Assembly: GCA_022768375.1 (NCBI GenBank)
Contig: JALEMG010000025.1
Span: 1-48,780 of the forward strand
Direction: 5' to 3'
Source of the DNA: Lentisphaeria bacterium
Lineage (GTDB): Bacteria > Verrucomicrobiota > Lentisphaeria > Victivallales > Victivallaceae
Length of the DNA: 48,780 bases
Shown here: in pieces, positions 23,101-35,028 of the stretch
How the letters are laid out: every line of letters begins with the position of its first letter
Numbering within the stretch: position 1 is the first letter of the stretch
Notes under the pieces: model-generated
Databases searched by the model: none
Told to the model about the DNA's origin: nothing
What the model saw: the letters and a program-made list of their open reading frames with translations, nothing else
Position numbers and translations under genes: made by a program

Positions 23101-24294
23101 CTACTTTCCTAAATCAAGAACCACGCCCCGGCGTTTGTATGCCGGGATATCCATATCCTGCCCGTCGATGATGACCGGCACGGTATTCTCCATGATACCC
23201 TTGTCCTCGGCGGTCAAATTCGGCAGGGCCAACTGCTCTCCTCCCGAACTCTCCGAAGCCGTCTCCGTGCCGCGGTCGGCACTGCGGCCGCGCCGACCGG
23301 CGCCCGCGGACGGGATCTCATCGTCCAGGTACCGCACCGTGAGTGCGGTCAACTGCATCCTCCCGGTCAGTTCCGGCAGGACCGCCGCGCCCAGCAGAAC
23401 ATTCTTCTCGCCGTTCGGATCCACTTGCCGGGTCGTCAACTCCAGTACGGCTTTGGCATCGCCCAGCGACAATTCCGGACCGCCCAAAAGCGAAAACACC
23501 ACCGCATCGGCGGTATCCAGCGCCTCGCTCCCGCCGAACAGCGGCGATTCCAGCATCCGTTCCACGACCCGATCCGGCGCGTCGGAGGCGTTTTCCGCCA
23601 CTCCGACGCCGAGGGAACAGAGGGTGTGCCGACGCTTCAACACGCCGGTGAATGCCGCCAGATCCGCGTTGAAAAGATTTCCGCCGCTGAAGATCAGCGA
23701 AATCGCCAGCAGACTGCGGGCCATGTTTTCATCCGAACAGCGAAACGCGTCCGCCAGCGGCACCGCCGCGTCCAGCGTACTGAACAGCAAATCGTTCGGC
23801 AGAGCGATCACCGCATCGGCCACCGGCATGATGTCGCCGGTGATCCGGCTGTCCGCCAGTTTCCGCCGCTGAAAACCTTCCATGGCAAAGGGCAGCGTGC
23901 AGAGCAGAACCGATGTGATTCGCAGTTTTGCCGCGACCCCGAACACCACCGGCAGACCGCCGGAGGCCAGACCGCCGCCCATACCGGCAATCACCAACAG
24001 GACCCTGGTTCCGCGCAGGGTCTCCCCCAGCACCTTGCGCTCGTTGGCCACCGCCATCTGCCCGGCCATCGCGTCGCCGCCGCAGCCGCGCCCGGACCGC
24101 CATAACCGCCCCGCCTGGATGAGGGAGGTTTCCGGCAGGCCGCTGCTCCGCAGCGCATCCGCATCGCTGTCCAGCGCCAGCAGTCTGAATCTGTCCGCCG
24201 CGCCCAGCGCCAGAAATTCACGCATGATCCGACAGCCGGCGCCGCCGACCGCCATGATGGTGATTTCCGGGGTTTTACGCTCACTTTCCGCCAT
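23101..24294 (-). CDS. ftsZ: Divergent FtsZ with altered GTPase motifs
   Basis: This 397-residue tubulin-fold protein keeps much of FtsZ: the T1 glycine loop AVGGAGCRIM (15-24), CTLPFAMEG (132-140), PNDLL (166-170), ESPLF, FSLLGGPELSLGDA, and a C-terminal tail DIPAYKRRG like the conserved FtsA/ZipA-binding peptide. The tubulin signature GMGGGTGTG reads GMGGGLASG (104-112). The T7 catalytic loop NxDFAD reads NADLAA (209-214), losing the second aspartate. GTP hydrolysis is thus probably weak or absent, although polymerisation may persist. It overlaps ftsA by 14 bases. The ATG at 24294 is preferred; a TTG 18 bases upstream is unlikely. A separate canonical FtsZ elsewhere in the genome cannot be excluded. 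Confidence 0.85.
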   Translation of the reverse strand: MAESERKTPEITIMAVGGAGCRIMREFLALGAADRFRLLALDSDADALRSSGLPETSLIQAGRLWRSGRGCGGDAMAGQMAVANERKVLGETLRGTRVLLVIAGMGGGLASGGLPVVFGVAAKLRITSVLLCTLPFAMEGFQRRKLADSRITGDIMPVADAVIALPNDLLFSTLDAAVPLADAFRCSDENMARSLLAISLIFSGGNLFNADLAAFTGVLKRRHTLCSLGVGVAENASDAPDRVVERMLESPLFGGSEALDTADAVVFSLLGGPELSLGDAKAVLELTTRQVDPNGEKNVLLGAAVLPELTGRMQLTALTVRYLDDEIPSAGAGRRGRSADRGTETASESSGGEQLALPNLTAEDKGIMENTVPVIIDGQDMDIPAYKRRGVVLDLGK

Positions 24295-25522
24295 TGAGGA
24301 CCCCCAACCCAAGTTTGCTGATCACCCGGGCCAGCACTCCTTCCGGAGCGGGACCGTAATTTTCCTGGAAGAACGCCGCCACTTTCAGCGCGCCCCACAC
24401 CGCGCTGAACCGGGGGGTGCGCAGTCCGCCGATGACCCCGGCGTCGGCGGGTTCCCCGACCCGGCAGGCCAAATCGAACACATCGCTGAACAACTCCCGG
24501 GAACGGAAATAGAGCGCGCCGCCGCCGGTCAGCACCCCACCGGCCATCAGCGTCCGCGGCGCCTGCTTGTCCCGCAGTTTCCGCCGGACCAGTTCAAAGA
24601 TTTCCCGCAGCCGGGTCTCCGCGATCAATTCCAGTGTCGCCACCGGCACCGAACGGGTTTTGCCGCCGGAACGGGAAAATTCCAGCGTCGGACGCCCTTC
24701 TTTCACCGCCTGAGCCAGTGTTCCGCTCTCCAGCAGTTTCCGGCAGGTGTCGATATGCACGCCCAGCGCGATTGCCAGATCGTTGGCCACATGATCCATG
24801 CCGAGTTGGATCACCCCGGAGGCGCAGACCCCGCGGTCCAGAAATACCAGATACTCGGTGACGCCAGCCCCCAGATCCACCATCAGCACGCCGTTCTGCT
24901 TCTCCCGGTCGTCCACGACGCCGAACCCGGCGGCCAGCGGGGAGAACACCGGCTCGATCCGGACGTTTTCGATTCCCGCGTCCACCACCGTGTCCCGGAA
25001 GTTGGCGATACGGCTGCTCACCGCATGCACGATATGAACGCAGGCTTCCAGACGCCGCCCGGAGAGCCGAAGCGGATTGACCACCCGACGGCCGTCCAGC
25101 AGAAAATACGACGTGGACGCGTTGATGATCTCCCGTTCCACGCCGACTTCCACGATCTTGGCGTTGCCCTCGGCCTCCATGCGGTCGGCGTCGCTGACCG
25201 CGCCGCCCTCGCCCTTGACCGTGGCGATGCCGTTATTCTGGAGGGAATCCACGCCGCCGCCGGTGACCAGCACCGCCAGCATCCGGCAATTGGCCAGTTC
25301 GCCGCCGGAACTTTTATCCGCACCGTCCAAAGCCTTGTTGAGCAGTCCGGCACACCGCTCCATATCCACGATCTCGCCTTTGACCACCACTCCGGCGGAG
25401 GGAACGATGCCGTGCCCCAGCACCGCGCCGATGCCGCCGCCGGCATCGACCTCCCCGAGCAGAACGCAGATCTTGGATGTGCCGAATTCCACGGCGCACA
25501 CCACATTGGGATTGCGAAACAT
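24281..25522 (-). CDS. ftsA: Cell division protein FtsA
   Basis: This 413-residue actin-like protein tethers FtsZ to the inner membrane. It shows phosphate-1 VVCAVEFGTSKICVLLGE near the N-terminus, the SHS2-type 1C domain region (about 75-170), phosphate-2 GVLMVDLGAGVTEY, the adenosine loop GGVLTGGGALYF, and a C-terminal amphipathic segment ARVISKLGLGVL that would act as membrane anchor. The ATG at 25522 is selected by a ggagg site and by homology; earlier in-frame codons run into the promoter. It overlaps ftsZ, and the pair lies outside any mur or division cluster. Confidence 0.9.
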   Translation of the reverse strand: MFRNPNVVCAVEFGTSKICVLLGEVDAGGGIGAVLGHGIVPSAGVVVKGEIVDMERCAGLLNKALDGADKSSGGELANCRMLAVLVTGGGVDSLQNNGIATVKGEGGAVSDADRMEAEGNAKIVEVGVEREIINASTSYFLLDGRRVVNPLRLSGRRLEACVHIVHAVSSRIANFRDTVVDAGIENVRIEPVFSPLAAGFGVVDDREKQNGVLMVDLGAGVTEYLVFLDRGVCASGVIQLGMDHVANDLAIALGVHIDTCRKLLESGTLAQAVKEGRPTLEFSRSGGKTRSVPVATLELIAETRLREIFELVRRKLRDKQAPRTLMAGGVLTGGGALYFRSRELFSDVFDLACRVGEPADAGVIGGLRTPRFSAVWGALKVAAFFQENYGPAPEGVLARVISKLGLGVLNGGK

Positions 25523-25559
25523 TTTCCTCCGTCCGAAATTCACTACCGTACTTCCGATG

Positions 25560-25588
25560 AATATAACATCGTTCCGGTGATTATGCAA
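25560..25588 (-). promoter_or_regulatory. Promoter of ftsA-ftsZ
   Basis: On the minus strand TTGCAT and TATATT are separated by 17 bases, about 40 bases before the ftsA start. It marks the beginning of the long co-directional run 12177-25522. No convincing terminator separates it from the gene at 25616, so read-through from the tig-clp operon is possible. Confidence 0.6.
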
Positions 25589-25615: not shown

Positions 25616-25990
25616 TCAGCGCACCGCGCCCAAACTCAGGATCCGCACCGGCAGCAGTAGCGTGTGGTACACCAGTTCAAAGGGGGCCGCCACACCGCCG
25701 ACACAGTTGTTCACCCCGCTCTCCGCCATGCCGAAAGGATACCCCAGCGTACACTGCAGCAGTCCCAGCGGCAGTTTCAGGATGTTCAGCATCGCCTGTC
25801 CGACATTGACGAATCCCAGTCCGCCGGACTGCATGGCATTGATGGCATGGGGACTCCACAGCGTGGCCAATTCCAATGCCTGCGGCGCAGCGCTGCTCAT
25901 GGTCATAGGGTCGAAAGCCCGCACCTCCGCCGGCAAGCCCAACATCCCGCATACCGCCAGAACCGCCGCCAGCCGGGTCCATCGCTTCAT
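25616..25990 (-). CDS. Small secreted hypothetical protein
   Basis: This 124-residue protein has a clear signal peptide (about 1-25, KRW start, hydrophobic core, cleavage near VRAFD). The mature part is amphipathic with moderately hydrophobic stretches (LNILKLPLGLLQCTLGYPFGMAESG, split by two cysteines at about 80 and 95). I do not recognise the family; the pattern hints at an envelope-associated protein. A ggagg-type site precedes the start. It follows dxr by 24 bases and is the last gene of that run. Confidence 0.65.
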   Translation of the reverse strand: MKRWTRLAAVLAVCGMLGLPAEVRAFDPMTMSSAAPQALELATLWSPHAINAMQSGGLGFVNVGQAMLNILKLPLGLLQCTLGYPFGMAESGVNNCVGGVAAPFELVYHTLLLPVRILSLGAVR

Positions 25991-26014: not shown

Positions 26015-27169
26015 TCAGACCCGGAACTCCCGGGCCCGGACCCTGGCCTCCGCGTCGGCGGCCAGCACCTGCTCCAGAGAATCCTGCGGCTCCACGGAAC
26101 TGGATTCCATGACCCCGCCCACGATCCGCCAAATGCCGCCGAATTCGATCTCGCCCCGGCAGAACCGTTCCACCGCCACTTCGTTGGCCGCATTCATCAC
26201 CGCCGGCAGCGTGCCGCCGGCCCGCAGCGCCGCGTCCGCGAACCGGAGCGAAGGAAACTTCTCCGCGTCCGGCGCAAACAGTTCCAAACTGCCCACCGCC
26301 GCCAAGTCCAGCCTCCGTCCCGGCGGCGGCATCCGCTCCGGCCAGGTCAGCGCGTAGGCGATCGCCAGACGCATGTCCGGCGCCGCCAGTTGCGCGATCA
26401 TGGAACCGTCGGTCAACTCCGCCAGCGCGTGAATCACCGACTGGGGGTTCACGATCACCCCCAGATGATCCGCGTCCGCGCCGAACAGATGCCCGGCCTC
26501 CACCAGTTCCAGCGCCTTGTTCATCATCGACGCCGAATCAATGGTGATCTTGCGCCCCATGCTCCACGTGGGATGTTTCAGCGCGTCCGGAAGCGTGGCA
26601 TGTTCGATCCTCTCCCGGCTCCAGGTACGGAAAGGTCCGCCGCTGGCGGTCAGCCAGATGCGGGCGATCTCCTTTTTTTCGCGCCCGGCCAGACATTGGA
26701 ATACCCCGGAGTGTTCGCTGTCCACCGGCACGATCCCGCCGCCGGGCGAGGCGGCGGCCGCCCGCATGACCAGTTCCCCGGCCAGAACCAGCACTTCCTT
26801 GCTGGCCAGCGCCACGCGCTTGCCGGCCCGCAGTGCCGCCAGCACTGGCATGATGCCCGCCGTGCCTACGATGGCGCACAGCACGAGATCCACATCGGGA
26901 TGCTGAACCGCCTCCATCATAGCGGCCATGCCGCACTGACCCTCCACGCCCGGAGGCAGAAGTTTCCGCAAAGAAGTTCCCTTTTCCTCCGCGGCGGTGA
27001 TCACCACTTCGGGGTTCAATTCCCCCGCCTGTCGCGCCAGTTCCGCCAGATTGTTCCGGGCGGCCAGGGCATAAACAGAAAACCGATCCGAATGCCGTTT
27101 CAACACATCCGCCGTATTGCGCCCGATGGAACCGGTCGCGCCCAGCACCACCACTTTTTTCTTTTGCAT
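26015..27169 (-). CDS. dxr: 1-deoxy-D-xylulose 5-phosphate reductoisomerase
   Basis: Dxr (IspC) makes methylerythritol 4-phosphate in the non-mevalonate isoprenoid pathway, supplying undecaprenyl carriers and quinones. The 384-residue protein has the NADPH loop GATGSIG near residue 10, ASKEVLVLAGE, the metal-binding VDSEHSGVFQ, TASGGPFR flexible loop, and MNKALELVEAGHLFG. The ATG at 27169 (MQKKKVVVLGATG) fits the family start; a longer frame upstream overlaps the kinase gene. It lies 13 bases after the kinase gene and upstream of the small secreted protein. Confidence 0.95.
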   Translation of the reverse strand: MQKKKVVVLGATGSIGRNTADVLKRHSDRFSVYALAARNNLAELARQAGELNPEVVITAAEEKGTSLRKLLPPGVEGQCGMAAMMEAVQHPDVDLVLCAIVGTAGIMPVLAALRAGKRVALASKEVLVLAGELVMRAAAASPGGGIVPVDSEHSGVFQCLAGREKKEIARIWLTASGGPFRTWSRERIEHATLPDALKHPTWSMGRKITIDSASMMNKALELVEAGHLFGADADHLGVIVNPQSVIHALAELTDGSMIAQLAAPDMRLAIAYALTWPERMPPPGRRLDLAAVGSLELFAPDAEKFPSLRFADAALRAGGTLPAVMNAANEVAVERFCRGEIEFGGIWRIVGGVMESSSVEPQDSLEQVLAADAEARVRAREFRV

Positions 27170-27182
27170 CGCCGCGCCTCCG

Positions 27183-28274
27183 TCAGATCTGCCGATACAA
27201 ATGCAGCGCCAGATACGCCAGCGCACCGGAAATCAGCAGCAGAATGAAAATGACCACAGCATAGATGTTGCGCCGCAGAAACAGCAGGGTATTGCGCCAA
27301 AACGACGCCTGTTCCGCCTGAGCCGCGTACCCGGAAAGGATCTCGTTGATCTCCCGGCGCAAGTCCACCGCGCCGGCGTACCGATCCGCCGGATCGCGGG
27401 CCATGGCCTTCATGCAGATCGCGTCCAGTCCCGGAGAAACCGGCTGACCGGACCGCGACGGCGGACCGATCCGCCCGGACGCCGTCCGCCGCAAAACCTC
27501 CTGCTGCGGCAGTCCGGCCAGCGGAGAATCCAGCGTCAAAATCGCATACAGGATGCCGCCCAGCGCGTAAATATCGCTGGCTTTACCGGCCTTGCCGCCC
27601 GGGATCAGCATTTCCGGCGCCATGTACCCGGGCGTGCCCTTCATACGCTCGGATTCTCCGGTCTCCGTCTCCGGTCCGGCCAGCCCCCAGTCGATCACCT
27701 GGACTTCACCGAAATCCCCGCAGTGGATGTTGCCGGGTTTGAGGTCGAAGTGGCAAATCCCCTTGGAATGTGCAAACGCCACCGCGTTGCACACCCGCTG
27801 AAAAATCTGGAGCAGCCGGACCTGCGGAAACTCCTGCCGGGTCTTCTCATCCCCGGAGCGCAGCCGCTTCAGCACCACGGCCAGCGTGGAACCGTGCAGA
27901 TATTTCATGGTAAAAAACGGCGACCCCAGCGCGTCGATCCCGATGTCGTAAACCGGGACGATGTTGGGATGTTCCAGCCGCGCGGTGATCATCGCCTCCC
28001 GGACGAACCGGTTCAGATCGCGCACCGGCCGGTCCCGGAAATCCGGCATGATCGCCATTGCCACGTCCCGGTCGGTATCCCGGTCGTGGACCAGCAACAC
28101 GCCCTTCATCCCGCCGAATCCGATACTGCGGATGAATTTGTAGCGGTCCTGCGGCTTGAGCGGCAGAGTCTCCAGCAGATTGTCACCGTCCGGTTCCGCC
28201 CCTTCGTCGGCGATCACCACGGTGTGCTCGTTGTCCCGTTCAGCGTCGTTCAAGTTCTGGTTCGGCTTCTCCAC
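27183..28274 (-). CDS. Membrane-anchored Ser/Thr kinase with WNK-like lysine placement
   Basis: This 363-residue protein has a kinase domain (about 45-310) and a C-terminal membrane helix (about 338-358), so the kinase faces the cytoplasm. The glycine loop reads [11 protein letters not shown] (51-61). The beta-3 motif is VAMAIM, so the usual ATP lysine is Ala74. Lys57 occupies the third-glycine position of the loop, as in eukaryotic WNK kinases. Glu93 of helix C, HFDLKPGN (Asp177, Lys179, Asn182) and the metal DWG (Asp195) are present, suggesting activity rather than a dead kinase. It starts with GTG, overlapping clpX by 35 bases, with gagg upstream. Confidence 0.85.
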
Positions 28275-29535
28275 GGACGACCTCGGCAGTTATCACACAC
28301 CGCGCCGGCCCCGGGCCGGACGGTGCGGTGAACATCAATTCCAGCATCAGATTTTCCATCAGCGCCCGCAATCCCCGGGCTCCGGTCCCGCGCTTCACCG
28401 CCCGCTCCGCCAGTTCCGCCAGCGCCTCGTCCGTGTACTGCAGATCGACATTCTCCATCGCCATCAGCCGGCGGTACTGCTTGACCAGCGCGTTTTTCGG
28501 CTCCTTGAGCACGCGGATCAGCGCCGCCTTGTCCAGCGGTTCCAGCGCCGCGAACACCGGCAGCCGCCCCACCAGTTCCGGGATCAGCCCGAAGTGGACC
28601 AGATCCTCCGGTTCGCACTCGTGAAGCAGTTGCGCCGCGTCTTTCTCCTCGTCCTCCGCCGCCGGGACCCCCTCCGCGCCGGAGAATCCCAGCACCCGTC
28701 TGCCCCGCCGCCGCTTGATCAGTTTGTCCAGCCCGACGAATGCCCCGCCGCAGATGAACAGAATGTTGGTGGTGTCGATGTGCAGAAACTCCTGATTGGG
28801 ATGCTTCCGCCCGCCCTGCGGCGGCACGTTGGCCACGGTCCCCTCCAGAATCTTGAGCAGCGCCTGCTGCACCCCTTCCCCGGAAACATCCCGGGTGATG
28901 GAGGCGTTCTCGCCCTTGCGGGAGATCTTGTCCAGTTCGTCGATGTAGATGATCCCGATCTGGGTCCGGGCAATGTCGTTGCCGGACGCCTGATACAGCC
29001 GGAGCAGAATATTCTCCACATCCTCTCCGACGTATCCCGCCTCGGTCAGCGTGGTGGCGTCGGTGATGGCAAACGGCACGTCCAGCATTTTGGCCAGCGT
29101 CTGCGCCAGCAGCGTCTTGCCGCTGCCGGTCGGCCCCAGCAGCAATACGTTGCTCTTGTCCAACTCGACGTCCGCCAGTTCGTCCGGCAGAGCCGCGTCC
29201 CGGCCGCTGAACTTCGCCTTGAGCCGGGCGTAGTGGTTGTGCACCGCCACGGAGAGGACCTTTTTCGCCTGCTCCTGACCGATCACGAACCGGTCCAGTT
29301 CCTCCTTGATCTCCCGCGGCGTCGGCACCTTGAGCCGGGCGACCGGGGATTCCGTCGCCGCCGGATTCTTTTTTCCGCGCACTTCACGGACGATCTCGCC
29401 GCCCTTTTTCAGACAGTCGGAGCAGATGTACAGCCCCTCGTACATGCTGGGGATGAAAAACGTGTCCGGCGCATCGCCGACATTCCGTCCGCAGAAGGCG
29501 CACCCCTGCGGCTTGTTGTTTTTGCCGTTCGCCAT
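28240..29535 (-). CDS. clpX: ATP-dependent Clp protease ATP-binding subunit ClpX
   Basis: ClpX unfolds tagged proteins and feeds them to ClpP. The 431-residue protein has the N-terminal zinc-binding domain (Cys12, Cys15, Cys38, Cys41), Walker [14 protein letters not shown], pore and sensor stretches [15 protein letters not shown], Walker [11 protein letters not shown], and the [12 protein letters not shown] segment before the small domain. An acidic insertion of about 20 residues ([16 protein letters not shown]) follows it. It begins at the base after the clpP stop. Confidence 0.97.
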
Positions 29536-30153
29536 TTACTTGCCGGCTTCCGATTTGCCGCGGATCGGCACCACCTTGTCCACCAGATGGTACTCCACCG
29601 CCTCCGCCGCGCTCATGAAAAAGTCGCGCTCGGTATCCTTGTAGATCTTTTTGAGCGGCTGGCCGGAATGATCGGCCAGGATGCGGCTCAGCATCTCTTT
29701 CAGCCGCAGAATCTCTTTGGCCTGAATGTCGATGTCGGCGGCGGTCCCTTCCGCGCCGCCCCACGGCTGATGGATCATGATCCGGCTGTTGGGCAGGGCG
29801 AAACGCTTGCCCGGCGCTCCGGCGGCCAGCAGCACCGCGCCCATGCTGGCGCACTGGCCGACGCAGTAGGTCCGAACATCGCAGGACAGGACCTGCATGG
29901 TGTCGTAGATCGCCAGCCCGGCGGTCACGGAACCGCCGGGACTGTTGATGTAGAGGTCGATGTCCTTTTTCGGGTCCTCCGCCTGCAGAAAGAGCAGTTG
30001 GGCGACGATGAGACTGGCGACCTGATCGTCGATGGGGGTTCCCAGCAGAATGATCCGGTCCTTGAGCAGACGGCTGTAGATGTCGAATGCCCGCTCGCCG
30101 GCGCCGGTCTGTTCGATCACCGTCGGCACCAGATAGGATTTGGTCTTGTTCAT
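29536..30153 (-). CDS. clpP: ATP-dependent Clp protease proteolytic subunit ClpP
   Basis: This 205-residue serine protease has the triad Ser103 (GQCASMGA), His128 (MIHQPWGG) and Asp177 (DTERDFFM), and forms the tetradecameric chamber used by ClpX and possibly ClpC (encoded at 32551). The ATG at 30153 is preferred because aaaggtg lies upstream and the N-terminus [17 protein letters not shown] is family-like; an upstream in-frame codon would add 16 residues. It is followed without spacing by clpX. Confidence 0.97.
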
Positions 30154-30211
30154 ACTTGCACCTTTCTCCCCCGTATTCACCCGGTTGCACCCAAGCGGCA
30201 AAGCCGGCGGA

Positions 30212-31519
30212 TCACGCCAGCGCCGCCTCGGTAAGTTTCTCCAGCACCTTGCCGTTGACGATATCGACCCGCAATTCGTCGATGGCGCCGGATTTCTCCA
30301 GCATATCCCGCAGTTCGCGGGGTTTGCTGCCGTAGTAGCGGCTCATCATCTGGATCTGAGCGTCCAACTCCTGATCGCCGACGGCGATCTTTTCCAGTTT
30401 CGCCGCCTGCCGCAGGATCAAAGTCCGGCGGACCGCTTTTTCCGCGTCGGCTTTCACCGCGGCGCGGTGGTCGGCCAGTTCCGCCTTGAACTTTTCGGCG
30501 TCCTCCTCGCTCTTGACGACCTCCCGGGCCTTCTGCTGCAGCAGTTTCTGGATCTCGCTGTCCACCAGCGCCTCGGGCAGGGCGAAATCCCCGGCCATGG
30601 CGTCCAGTTTTACGTAGACGGCCTCGGCGGCATCCCGGCGCTGTTTGGCTTTGGCGTCGGTTTCCAGCCCTTTGCGGATATTTTCTTTCAGCGCGTCGAG
30701 CGAAGCGCTGGCGGTGCGTTCGACCAATTCCTCGTCAGTCAGTTTCTTCCGCCGCTGAATGGCGTTGACTTTCACCGTATAAGCGACCTTCCTGCCGGCC
30801 AGGGCCGCTTCCCGGTAATCCGCCGGGTACTCGGAAACGAACTTGTACTCCTTGCCGACTTCCGCGCCGGTCAGGGCCTTGATGCACCCGGGCAGGATCT
30901 CCGGCTCGTTGAGCCACACAAAGGCGTCTTTCGCCTCAACTTGACGCTTCAACGCCGCCGAAGCATCCTCCGGAAGCGGGAAATCCCCCTGATAGTCGAC
31001 CTTGAGCATATCCTCGGCCTGCGCCGCGCCCTCGGCATCGGCGTAGGAACCGTACATGGCGCGGAACATGTCCAGCCGCTCCTCCACGGCCTTCTCCTCC
31101 ACCGCGTCCACGGGGACCTCGACCTTGATGCTCTTGTAATCGGCCAGATCGATCGCCGGGGCGATCACGCCCTCCATGGAAAAGGCGAACTCCTCGCCGA
31201 CCTTGAATTCCCCCATGTCCTTGAAGCGGAGGGAGAGCAGATCCAGCGCCGCGTCGGATTCGATCTTCTCCACCGCCGCGCCGACGAAGCGGTTGCGCAG
31301 TTCCTCGGCGATCTCGCCGGCGTATTTTTTGCTCACCAGCGTCTGCGGCGCCTTGCCGGGCCGGAATCCGGGCAGATGGGCCACGCCGGAGATGTAGTTC
31401 AAAACTTTTCCGGACTCGCTTTTCGCCACGTCGGCGGGAACCTTGAAGGCAAATTCCCGGACACAGACGCCGGTATCTTTCACTTCCAGAGCGACGGATT
31501 CACTGAGTTTTTTCGCCAT
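30212..31519 (-). CDS. tig: Trigger factor, ribosome-associated chaperone
   Basis: This 435-residue protein starts with a ribosome-binding domain carrying GFRPGKAP (51-58), followed by an FKBP-like peptidyl-prolyl isomerase domain (about 150-245; the region is divergent) and a helical C-terminal chaperone domain. It folds nascent chains at the exit tunnel. It is the first gene of tig-clpP-clpX, the standard order, and is driven by the promoter at 31583-31611. The 58 bases before clpP contain no clear terminator. Confidence 0.95.
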
Positions 31520-32550: not shown

Positions 32551-35028
32551 TCACTTCGGGAAGATCAGAATTTTCTGGTTGTCCAACTCCACCCGCACGC
32601 CCTCCGCCTCGGCGAATGTCCCGCGCAGCAGTTCCTCGGCCAGCGGGTCCTCGATAAGCCGCTCCACCGCCCGCCGGAGCGGACGGGCGCCGTACTCGGG
32701 ATCGAAATTGCGCTCCACCAGAAATCGTTTCACCTCGTCGGAGACCGTCAGCGTCAGATTCCGGTCGGCCAGCAAAGTTCCGAGTTTGGCCAGTTCCAGA
32801 TCCACGATGCGGATGAGCGCGTCCTGATCCAGACGGCGGAAGATCACCACATCGTCCACCCGGTTGAGAAATTCCGGCTTGAAGTGCTTCTTGGCCAGCG
32901 CCAGCAGCCGATCGTCGTCCTTGCGGGCGTCGGCGGCGCTTCCGGCGCTGAATCCGAGGGTCCCGGTCCCGGCCAGTTCCGCCGCGCCCACGTTGCTGGT
33001 CATGATCACAATGGTGTTGCGGAAGTCGATCCGGCGGCCGAGGGTGTCGGTGATCCGTCCCTCCTCCAGAATCTGCAGCAGCATGTTGACCACGTCGGGA
33101 TGGGCTTTTTCGATCTCGTCGAACAGCACGACGGAATAGGGCCGCCGCCGGACTTTCTCCGTCAGTTCGCCGCCCTCGCCGTGCCCCACATATCCCGGCG
33201 GAGACCCCACCAGACGCGAGACGTTGAATTTCTCCATATACTCGGACATGTCGATGGAAATGAGCGCGTCGGCGTCCCCGAACATGAATTCGGCCAGCGC
33301 CTTGGCCAGCAGCGTCTTGCCCACCCCGGTCGGACCGAGGAAAATAAAGGAGCCGATGGGCCGGTGCGGGTCCTTGAGTTCCGCCCGGGAACGGCGCAGC
33401 GCCCGGGAGATCGCGCCGACCGCCTGATCCTGTCCGACCACGGTGCGGGTCAATTCGCTCTCCATGCGCAGCAGTTTGGCACTCTCGCCCTCCTCCAGCT
33501 GCCGGACCGGCACCCCGGTCAGCACCGCCACCACCGCCGCGATGTCCCCGGGGGTGATCTCGGCGGTCACCCCGTCCCGGCGGCGCTTCCACTCGGTCAT
33601 GACCGCATCCCGCTCCTGCCGGAGTTGCCGTTCGGCGTCCCGCAGTCCGGCCGCGCCTTCGAAGTCCTGTTCCGCCACCGCCCGTAGTTTCCGGGAGGCA
33701 AGTTCGGCCAGTTTGCCGTCGATCTCCGCCGTGTCCGGCGGCGGTACCGTCTCCTTGATCCGGGCCCGGGCGCCGGACTCGTCCATGATGTCGATGGCCT
33801 TGTCGGGCAGGAAGCGGCCGGAAATGTACCGGTCGGCCAGACGCACCGCGTTCTCCAGCGCGCCGGGCGCGTAGTGAACGTGGTGGTGCTGCTCGTAGGT
33901 CTTTTTCAGCCCTTCCAGAATCCGGATCGAATCCTCCACCGAGGGCGGATTGACCATCACCGGCTGAAATCTCCGCTCCAGCGCGGCGTCTTTTTCAATT
34001 CCCTTGCGGTACTCATCCAGCGTGGTGGCGCCGACGCACTGCAGTTCGCCCCGGGAGAGCGCGGGTTTGATGATGTTGGCGGCGTCCATCGCGCCCTCCG
34101 CGCCGCCCGCGCCGACGATGGTGTGCAGTTCGTCGATGAAAAGGATCACCTTGCCGGAATTGCGGACCTCGTCGATCACGCTTTTGATCCGTTCCTCGAA
34201 TTGGCCGCGGTACTTGGTCCCGGCCACCATCAGCGGCAAATCCAGCGAATAGATCTGCTTGCCCGCCAGGATCTCCGGGACCCGCTGTTCGCTCACCGCC
34301 TGCGCCAGACCCTCGATGATCGCGGTCTTGCCGACTCCCGCTTCCCCGATCAGTACGGGATTGTTCTTGGTGCGGCGGCAGAGGATCTGGACGACCCGTT
34401 CGATCTCGGCGCTCCGTCCGATCACCGGATCAAGTTTCCCGGCGGCGGCCAGCGCGGTGAGATTGCGGCCGAACGCGTCCAGCGCGGGCAGTTCTCCCCT
34501 GCCGGAAGCCTCCGGACGCGCCTCCGCCCCCTCCTCGCCGGGAGTTTCACCGCCGTCCGGCAGGTATTCCGGGTCCAGCGCCCGCAGCACCGCCTGCCGG
34601 ATGGCATCGGCATCCAGCCCGAAATTTTTCAGCACCCGGGCCGCCGGATTGCCGCCCTCGTTGAGTATCCCCAGCAGAATATGTTCCGTACCGATGAAAT
34701 TGTAGTTCATCGCCAGCGCTTCGGCGGCGGCCAGTTCCAGAACCTTTTTCGCCGCCGCGTTCAGCGGGACGTCGCCAGCCTGCTGCGTACTCTCGCCGTG
34801 GCCGCAGCACTTCTCCACCTCCAGCCGGACGGACTGCAGATTTAGGCCCTTCTCATTCAGCACCTCCACCGCCACGCCCTCCCCGAGCGCGAAAAGGCCC
34901 AGCAGCAGATGTTCCGCGCCGATGTAGCCGTGATTGAAGCGCATGGATTCCCGCCGGGCCAGCAGCAGCACCTGCCGGGCGCGGGGAGTGAAACGGTTGA
35001 AATCCCCGGGATCGGGTTTGTTGCTCAT
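32551..35028 (-). CDS. clpC: ClpC-type AAA+ unfoldase
   Basis: This 825-residue Hsp100 protein has two N-terminal Clp-N repeats (about 13-150), a first AAA module (Walker [10 protein letters not shown], Walker [11 protein letters not shown]), a coiled middle region with a UVR-like motif ([21 protein letters not shown]), and a second AAA module ([19 protein letters not shown]). The UVR motif and short middle domain mark it as ClpC rather than ClpB. A partner ClpP is encoded at 29536. It has its own promoter (35070-35098) and is followed after 13 bases by the zinc-ribbon gene. Confidence 0.95.

Follow-up and report, generated by a model that had tools for sequence, protein, structure and literature searches.

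A WNK-type Lysine Swap Fixed in a Clade of Bacterial Ser/Thr Kinases, with a Short Form Encoded Behind clpX

A Ser/Thr kinase (STK) encoded by a Lentisphaeria bacterium (assembly GCA_022768375.1) was found to lack the lysine of strand beta-3 and to carry a lysine in its glycine-rich loop, at the sequence position occupied by Lys233 in the eukaryotic kinase WNK1. The gene lies within a 48,780-nucleotide stretch of contig JALEMG010000025.1 (positions 1 to 48,780, hereafter the window), and its product is referred to as the window kinase. The lysine swap, its fixation among the relatives that carry it, the clade that these relatives form and the adjacency of the short forms to clpX can all be read directly from the sequences. 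The explanation that best accounts for the whole, and that we consider probable, is that the nucleotide-anchoring lysine left beta-3 for the glycine loop, likely apart from the event that produced WNK, that Lys57 is the catalytic lysine and that the kinase is linked to the protease ClpXP.

The lysine swap in the window kinase

The open reading frame (ORF) spans 27183-28274 and lies, like all features given below, on the minus strand. It encodes 363 amino acids from a GTG start and matches the Pfam model PF00069 (Pkinase) with an E-value of 1.7e-35 and 123.2 bits (cut-off 31.7). In both sequence and fold, the solved proteins nearest to it are PknB and other bacterial STKs. The glycine-rich loop, G52-FGGMKG-V59 (28098..28121), holds Lys57 at the third-glycine position (codon AAG, 28104..28106), and strand beta-3 reads V71-A-M-A74, with Ala74 (28053..28055) at the usual site of the ATP-anchoring lysine of the VAIK motif. 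Helix-C Glu93 (27996..27998), with which the catalytic lysine would be expected to form a salt bridge, is present, as are the catalytic Asp177 and Asn182 of the catalytic loop H175-F-D177-L-K179-P-G-N182 (27729..27752), in which Phe176 takes the place of the HRD arginine, and the metal-binding Asp195 of D195-W-G197 (27684..27692). An earlier note on this DNA, made from the sequence alone, had listed the motifs GFGGMKGV with Lys57, VAMAIM with Ala74, Glu93, HFDLKPGN and DWG and placed the Lys57 codon at 28104-28106; translation of the ORF agreed with it exactly, the codon being read from 28106 to 28104. When WNK1 was aligned to the window kinase, Lys233 fell on Lys57, Cys250 on Ala74 and Glu268 on Glu93. 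The host genome (2.25 Mb) has eight Pkinase matches, among which the window kinase is the sole loop lysine found, the loop of one other match (L005) being poorly readable.

Co-occurrence of the two replacements among relatives

Relatives were collected by similarity to the window kinase or to a profile of the loop-lysine kinases. Matches were present in 60 of 60 genomes of near relatives and in 220 of 240 genomes from the same phylum, and samples of 294 Planctomycetota genomes (used twice) and 398 Pseudomonadota genomes were also searched. In addition, 80 further regions (60 + 20) were hand-picked out of the hit lists, and a peptide-pattern scan of named genomes, which reaches close relatives only and of whose six patterns one includes the beta-3 alanine, gave 46 loci. 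Since sampling followed similarity to the query or profile, the counts that follow are not measures of prevalence. After identical stretches were dropped, 213 distinct kinases were aligned and 212 were scored (a gap row, L220:2694, was removed, and locus L167 yielded no kinase row).

A loop lysine at the third-glycine position was present in 109 of the 212 scored kinases, and all 109 have alanine at the beta-3 position. The helix-C Glu, catalytic Asp, Asn and metal Asp are likewise kept in 109 of 109, and the position of the HRD arginine is filled by Leu (95), Phe (12), Tyr (1) or Met (1). Among the 103 kinases without a loop lysine, 101 carry the beta-3 lysine, and the corresponding loop residue is Gly (95), Ala (7) or Arg (1); the two exceptions, which have neither lysine, are a degraded kinase reading GFG (L133:2820) and a poorly aligned row (L084). 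The earlier note had asked whether loop lysine and beta-3 non-lysine always go together, and had named homologues with both lysines as the finding that would count against it; none of the 109 loop-lysine kinases keeps a beta-3 lysine, and the two lysines occur together in none of the 212 kinases scored. The co-occurrence of loop lysine and beta-3 alanine is beyond chance. The spacing from Lys to Ala was 17 residues in all 91 cases checked, the same as from Lys233 to Cys250 in WNK1, and identity between loop-lysine members falls to as little as 34%. Since the loop lysine is encoded by both AAA (53) and AAG (38), and the beta-3 alanine by all four of its codons, selection appears to act at the level of the protein.

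Origin of the swap

The three trait columns were removed from the alignment before phylogenetic trees were built. In a quick tree of 127 of 131 rows (L084, L005, L007 and L008 were left out), the loop-lysine kinases made up one side of a single branch, with a value of 96 in the Shimodaira-Hasegawa-like approximate likelihood ratio test (SH-aLRT). A careful tree was built from 107 rows, a set that also excluded L133:2820, L133:3-788, near-duplicates and any row in which fewer than 190 positions were filled, and which was run with WNK1, PKA and PknB. Here the loop-lysine clade had a support of 100/97 (bootstrap not fully settled) and was nested in bacterial kinases; WNK1 fell with PKA inside a set of 15 rows (98/98), the rest of which are canonical bacterial kinases, and the tool warned that WNK1 and PKA have long branches that meet here. 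Two smaller sets, of 66 and 57 rows, also excluded L001 and L220:2694, and the 57-row set was without PKA. The careful 66-row tree supported the loop-lysine clade at 100/98 and joined the eukaryotic kinases WNK1, MST3, PAK1 and PKA at 100/98, with a similar long-branch warning for PKA, and the quick tree of the thin 57-row set needed two changes for its bacterial loop-lysine rows. On this phylogenetic evidence, the loop-lysine trait has a single origin within the bacteria sampled, and the WNK-type active site most likely evolved separately in Verrucomicrobiota.

Several results weigh against our interpretation. Since the trees indicate one gain of the trait, the co-occurrence represents one event that was retained rather than 109 events, and the association of the two lysine positions counts only once. 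When WNK1 was forced into the loop-lysine clade, the tree was 32.7 log units worse with 66 rows and 13.8 log units worse with 107 rows, at p values of 0.063 and 0.311, respectively, in the approximately unbiased (AU) test, and with the thin 57-row set the forced joint tree scored better than the quick free tree by 5.6 log units (AU p 0.567). Because p values of 0.063-0.567 do not formally reject a union with WNK1, an independent origin is favoured but not proven. Loss of the HRD arginine is also not specific to the swap. A strict triple change that includes this loss was considered and rejected, since HLD occurs together with a kept beta-3 lysine in five canonical kinases, three from Planctomycetota (L180, L182 and L194) and two from Pseudomonadota (L196 and L197), in which the arginine was thus lost without the swap; further canonical kinases carry other residues at this position. 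Finally, gene order is by itself no proof that ClpXP is the target of the kinase.

The AU results are compatible with an alternative in which gene transfer gave the loop-lysine kinases and eukaryotic WNKs a common ancestry, and so is the joint tree of the thin set; WNK1 moreover sits on a long branch and was the single WNK used. However, WNK1 groups with MST3, PAK1 and PKA while the loop-lysine kinases nest among bacterial kinases, and the joint tree is 32.7 log units worse in the 66-row set. Furthermore, the family profile matched PknB with 253 bits, no WNK was among the 60 listed of 1300 solved-structure matches, and WNK1 retains the HRD arginine and has Cys rather than Ala in beta-3. (WNK was also not among the 50 listed VIA-align rows, a result that is uninformative about kinship with WNK.) We therefore regard common ancestry as very improbable. 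The independent bacterial origin that the earlier note had put forward is favoured by the nested position of the clade and the eukaryotic company of WNK1, and the AU values keep it short of proof.

Catalytic activity and the question of chloride sensing

We infer that, in the window kinase, the nucleotide-anchoring lysine has been relocated out of beta-3 and into the glycine loop, where beta-2 begins; Lys57 would there stand in for the beta-3 lysine by binding the phosphates of ATP and pairing with Glu93 of helix C, while Asp177, Asn182 and Asp195 would carry out phosphotransfer as in any kinase. Since the HRD arginine is gone, phosphorylation of the activation loop is probably not required in the usual way. 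The loss suggests activation without the usual contact to a phosphorylated loop, as is known for non-RD kinases. A putative C-terminal transmembrane helix at approximately residues 337-359 (27198..27266), recognized by eye as a hydrophobic stretch with few residues after it, would hold the kinase at the inner membrane; a predicted structure model has a helix at 337-362. No sensor domain follows this helix, and neither PASTA nor any other extracytoplasmic domain was found; against the PASTA kinase family (NF033483) the protein scored 203.5 bits, with the curated cut-off at 450.

Absence of the beta-3 lysine, here replaced by Ala74, is a usual criterion for calling a pseudokinase, and bacterial pseudokinase scaffolds exist (O'Boyle 2025, PMC12599244, in excerpt). 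The window protein, with no sensor domain past its membrane helix, might accordingly be a pseudokinase that binds ATP or is a mere partner, serving as a membrane scaffold for ClpXP and using its loop lysine for binding or structure. We consider this unlikely, since the catalytic Asp, Asn, metal Asp and helix-C Glu are retained throughout the 109 loop-lysine kinases, and of the bacterial pseudokinases that the excerpted review lists in a table, most have an altered HRD or DFG. The earlier note had argued against a dead kinase from the residues of one protein, and the full retention seen across the family suggests that it argued well.

The same note had suggested an ion- or crowding-linked role. 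As in WNK, the swap could make the rear of the pocket accessible to a halide, so that the kinase might sense chloride or crowding; in favour of this, the swap occupies the same sequence place as in WNK, and it has been proposed that WNK1 binds halide because its Lys233 is unusually placed (PMC4718504, in excerpt). We examined alignment rows at four positions of WNK1. Phe283 and Leu369, and also Leu299 and Leu371, are what we take to be the chloride-pocket residues. The position of Phe283 is occupied by Val or Ile in 108 of 110 rows (Val in the window kinase) and that of Leu369 by Trp in 109 of 110, including the window kinase; Leu371 corresponds to Leu in the window kinase, and Leu299 aligns only doubtfully. 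Canonical bacterial relatives mostly carry the same residues at the Phe283 and Leu369 positions. Since these two positions differ from WNK1 and largely match canonical relatives, there is no sign of a halide site there, and we think it highly doubtful that the kinase senses chloride or crowding. Of the earlier interpretation, therefore, the lysine swap and the intact remainder of the active site stood, the separate origin is favoured and the ion- or crowding-linked role was not borne out. The note had overlooked how large the family is and its conserved place behind clpX.

Taxonomic distribution

Within the phylum of the window, Verrucomicrobiota as GTDB defines it, loop-lysine kinases occur in the families coded f1-f7, f11, f15, f18 and f26; the taxa named in the 46-locus scan were Lentisphaeria, Victivallis, Pontiella and a Kiritimatiellales metagenome-assembled genome. 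Outside this phylum, they were found in one Planctomycetota-assigned genome (G308, which may be a genuine planctomycete or a bin of mixed origin), in which nine of nine loci read have the loop lysine. A wide spread beyond Verrucomicrobiota was rejected for the phyla sampled, as among the best-match loci of Planctomycetota (two sets of 30, partly overlapping) only L168 and L201, both from G308, were loop-lysine forms. In Pseudomonadota, 4 of 398 genomes matched at E<=1e-35, and all five loci were canonical, with no loop lysine. Among plasmid records, 143 matched by overall similarity, all at less than 60% identity (15 listed). Three genomes of the same class (G222, G237 and G258; 5.3-5.5 Mb) had 94-101 kinase candidates each at first look, of which 8 were scored; the loci taken from them are loop-lysine forms.

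Gene neighbourhood and linkage to clpX

In the window, the genes tig, clpP, clpX, kinase and dxr follow one another on one strand. Trigger factor (tig) is at 30212..31519, clpP at 29536..30201 and clpX at 28240..29535, the last overlapping the start of the kinase by 35 nt; dxr, for DXP reductoisomerase, is at 26015..27169, with its ATG 13 nt past the kinase stop and preceded by GGAGG. The row tig, clpP, clpX, kinase is also seen in Victivallis vadensis (locus L055). Among short loop-lysine open frames (<=480 amino acids, that of the window included), 52 of 56 follow clpX directly in the same orientation, and short-form frames start between 295 nt inside clpX and 115 nt past it. Two of the four short forms without clpX are full kinase domains (L113 and L145), and the other two are frames of 251 and 245 amino acids (L201 and L245, respectively). 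None of 54 long loop-lysine forms has clpX directly upstream, with at least 300 nt of upstream sequence examined for each. A dxr gene downstream of the kinase was seen in nearer relatives only, many loci having short flanks. Strong leucine-rich-repeat (LRR) matches were found in three of nine long relatives scanned (L117, L101 and L144). These three are loop-lysine kinases of ~1000-1200 amino acids that have the makeup of bacterial LRR receptor-like kinases.

Judging from gene order and domain matches, one lineage has kept a clpX-linked form without a sensor, and receptor-like kinases elsewhere have the same active site. Since the short copies adjoin clpX, a functional link to ClpXP proteolysis is suggested, and given the row of tig, clpP and clpX around it, the window kinase would most likely phosphorylate ClpX, ClpP or proteins bound for ClpXP. 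A more far-reaching reading is that an entire branch of bacterial signalling, to which the LRR receptor-like kinases of some genomes belong, runs on an independent WNK-type site without the HRD arginine, and that its membrane-anchored, clpX-linked member became fixed in the ClpXP system, phosphorylating the protease or marking its substrates; this we put forward only tentatively, as a possibility with the odds against it.

Other genes nearby were also noted. A ClpC/ClpB-like ATPase (Clp_N, AAA_2 and ClpB_D2-small) is encoded at 32551-35028, ~1 kb upstream of the tig-clpP-clpX-kinase row, so that two Clp ATPases and the kinase are neighbours on the same strand. Downstream of the kinase are an ftsA-like gene (24281-25588) and an ftsZ-like gene (23101-24312), whose modest Pfam scores suggest divergent division proteins. 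Between dxr and the ftsA-like gene, a 124-amino-acid ORF (25616-25990) had no Pfam match at E<=1e-5 and recurs in near relatives at 47-71% identity.

Significance

WNK has been described as the only functional family of eukaryotic protein kinases without the beta-3 lysine, K72 (Kannan 2007, PMC1821047, in excerpt). Bacterial pseudokinase families have been reviewed (O'Boyle 2025, PMC12599244); in the excerpted text, none of the families described shows the pattern of loop Lys and beta-3 Ala, and the stems Lentisphaer-, Planctomycet- and Verrucomicrob- have no occurrence. Full-text literature searches, whose scope did not extend to the bacterial STK atlas (Science Signaling 2025), likewise listed no bacterial WNK-type STK. 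It is well supported by the alignments that a WNK-type lysine swap is fixed in a large clade of bacterial kinases, apparently a novel form of a known trick. The beta-3 lysine is among the residues used to call kinases alive or dead, and motif-based annotation would tend to label loop-lysine kinases as pseudokinases. A bacterial family that apparently evolved it separately would also allow the swap to be compared across origins, indicating which companion changes it needs and whether halide sensing follows from geometry or is a specialty of WNK, and the conserved place behind clpX makes a link between kinase and protease testable.

Comparison with known systems

A close parallel is WNK itself (WNK1, PDB 5w7t and 4pwn), which shares with the clade the third-glycine Lys, the lack of a beta-3 lysine, the 17-residue spacing, and the helix-C Glu, catalytic Asp, Asn and metal Asp. 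It differs in having Cys at the beta-3 position, where the window kinase and the clade have Ala, in keeping the HRD arginine, where the window kinase has Phe176 and the clade mostly Leu, and in reading DLG rather than DWG. In the best trees, which include one WNK and carry long-branch warnings, the loop-lysine kinases belong to a bacterial PknB-like lineage apart from WNK1. PknB-type kinases (Mycobacterium PknB, StkP), the nearest to the window kinase in solved sequence and fold, are membrane kinases with a cytosolic domain. PknB differs from the clade in having Ser at the loop position and in keeping both the beta-3 Lys and the HRD arginine, and the window kinase is without the PASTA or other extracytoplasmic domain.

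Relocation of the lysine has precedents outside protein STKs. In the protein O-mannose kinase POMK (SGK196), the catalytic lysine migrated from beta-3 to beta-2, but POMK is a sugar kinase that is also without the canonical HRD and DFG aspartates (PMC10211241, in excerpt). In CAK-chloro, a subfamily of bacterial proteins resembling choline and aminoglycoside kinases, the positive charge moved from position 72 to 55, but the residues are Arg55 and Met72, the helix-C Glu is replaced by Phe, and the family is kinase-like and not an STK (PMC1821047, in excerpt). Among the bacterial pseudokinase families ActPs, CP1, DYD and DLHK, the beta-3 lysine is replaced in several, according to the excerpted review (O'Boyle 2025, PMC12599244). 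DYD is without the helix-C Glu that the loop-lysine clade keeps. DLHK has conserved beta-2 arginines, where the compensating residue of the clade is Lys, but its ATP- and metal-binding motifs are degraded, whereas those of the loop-lysine clade are intact.
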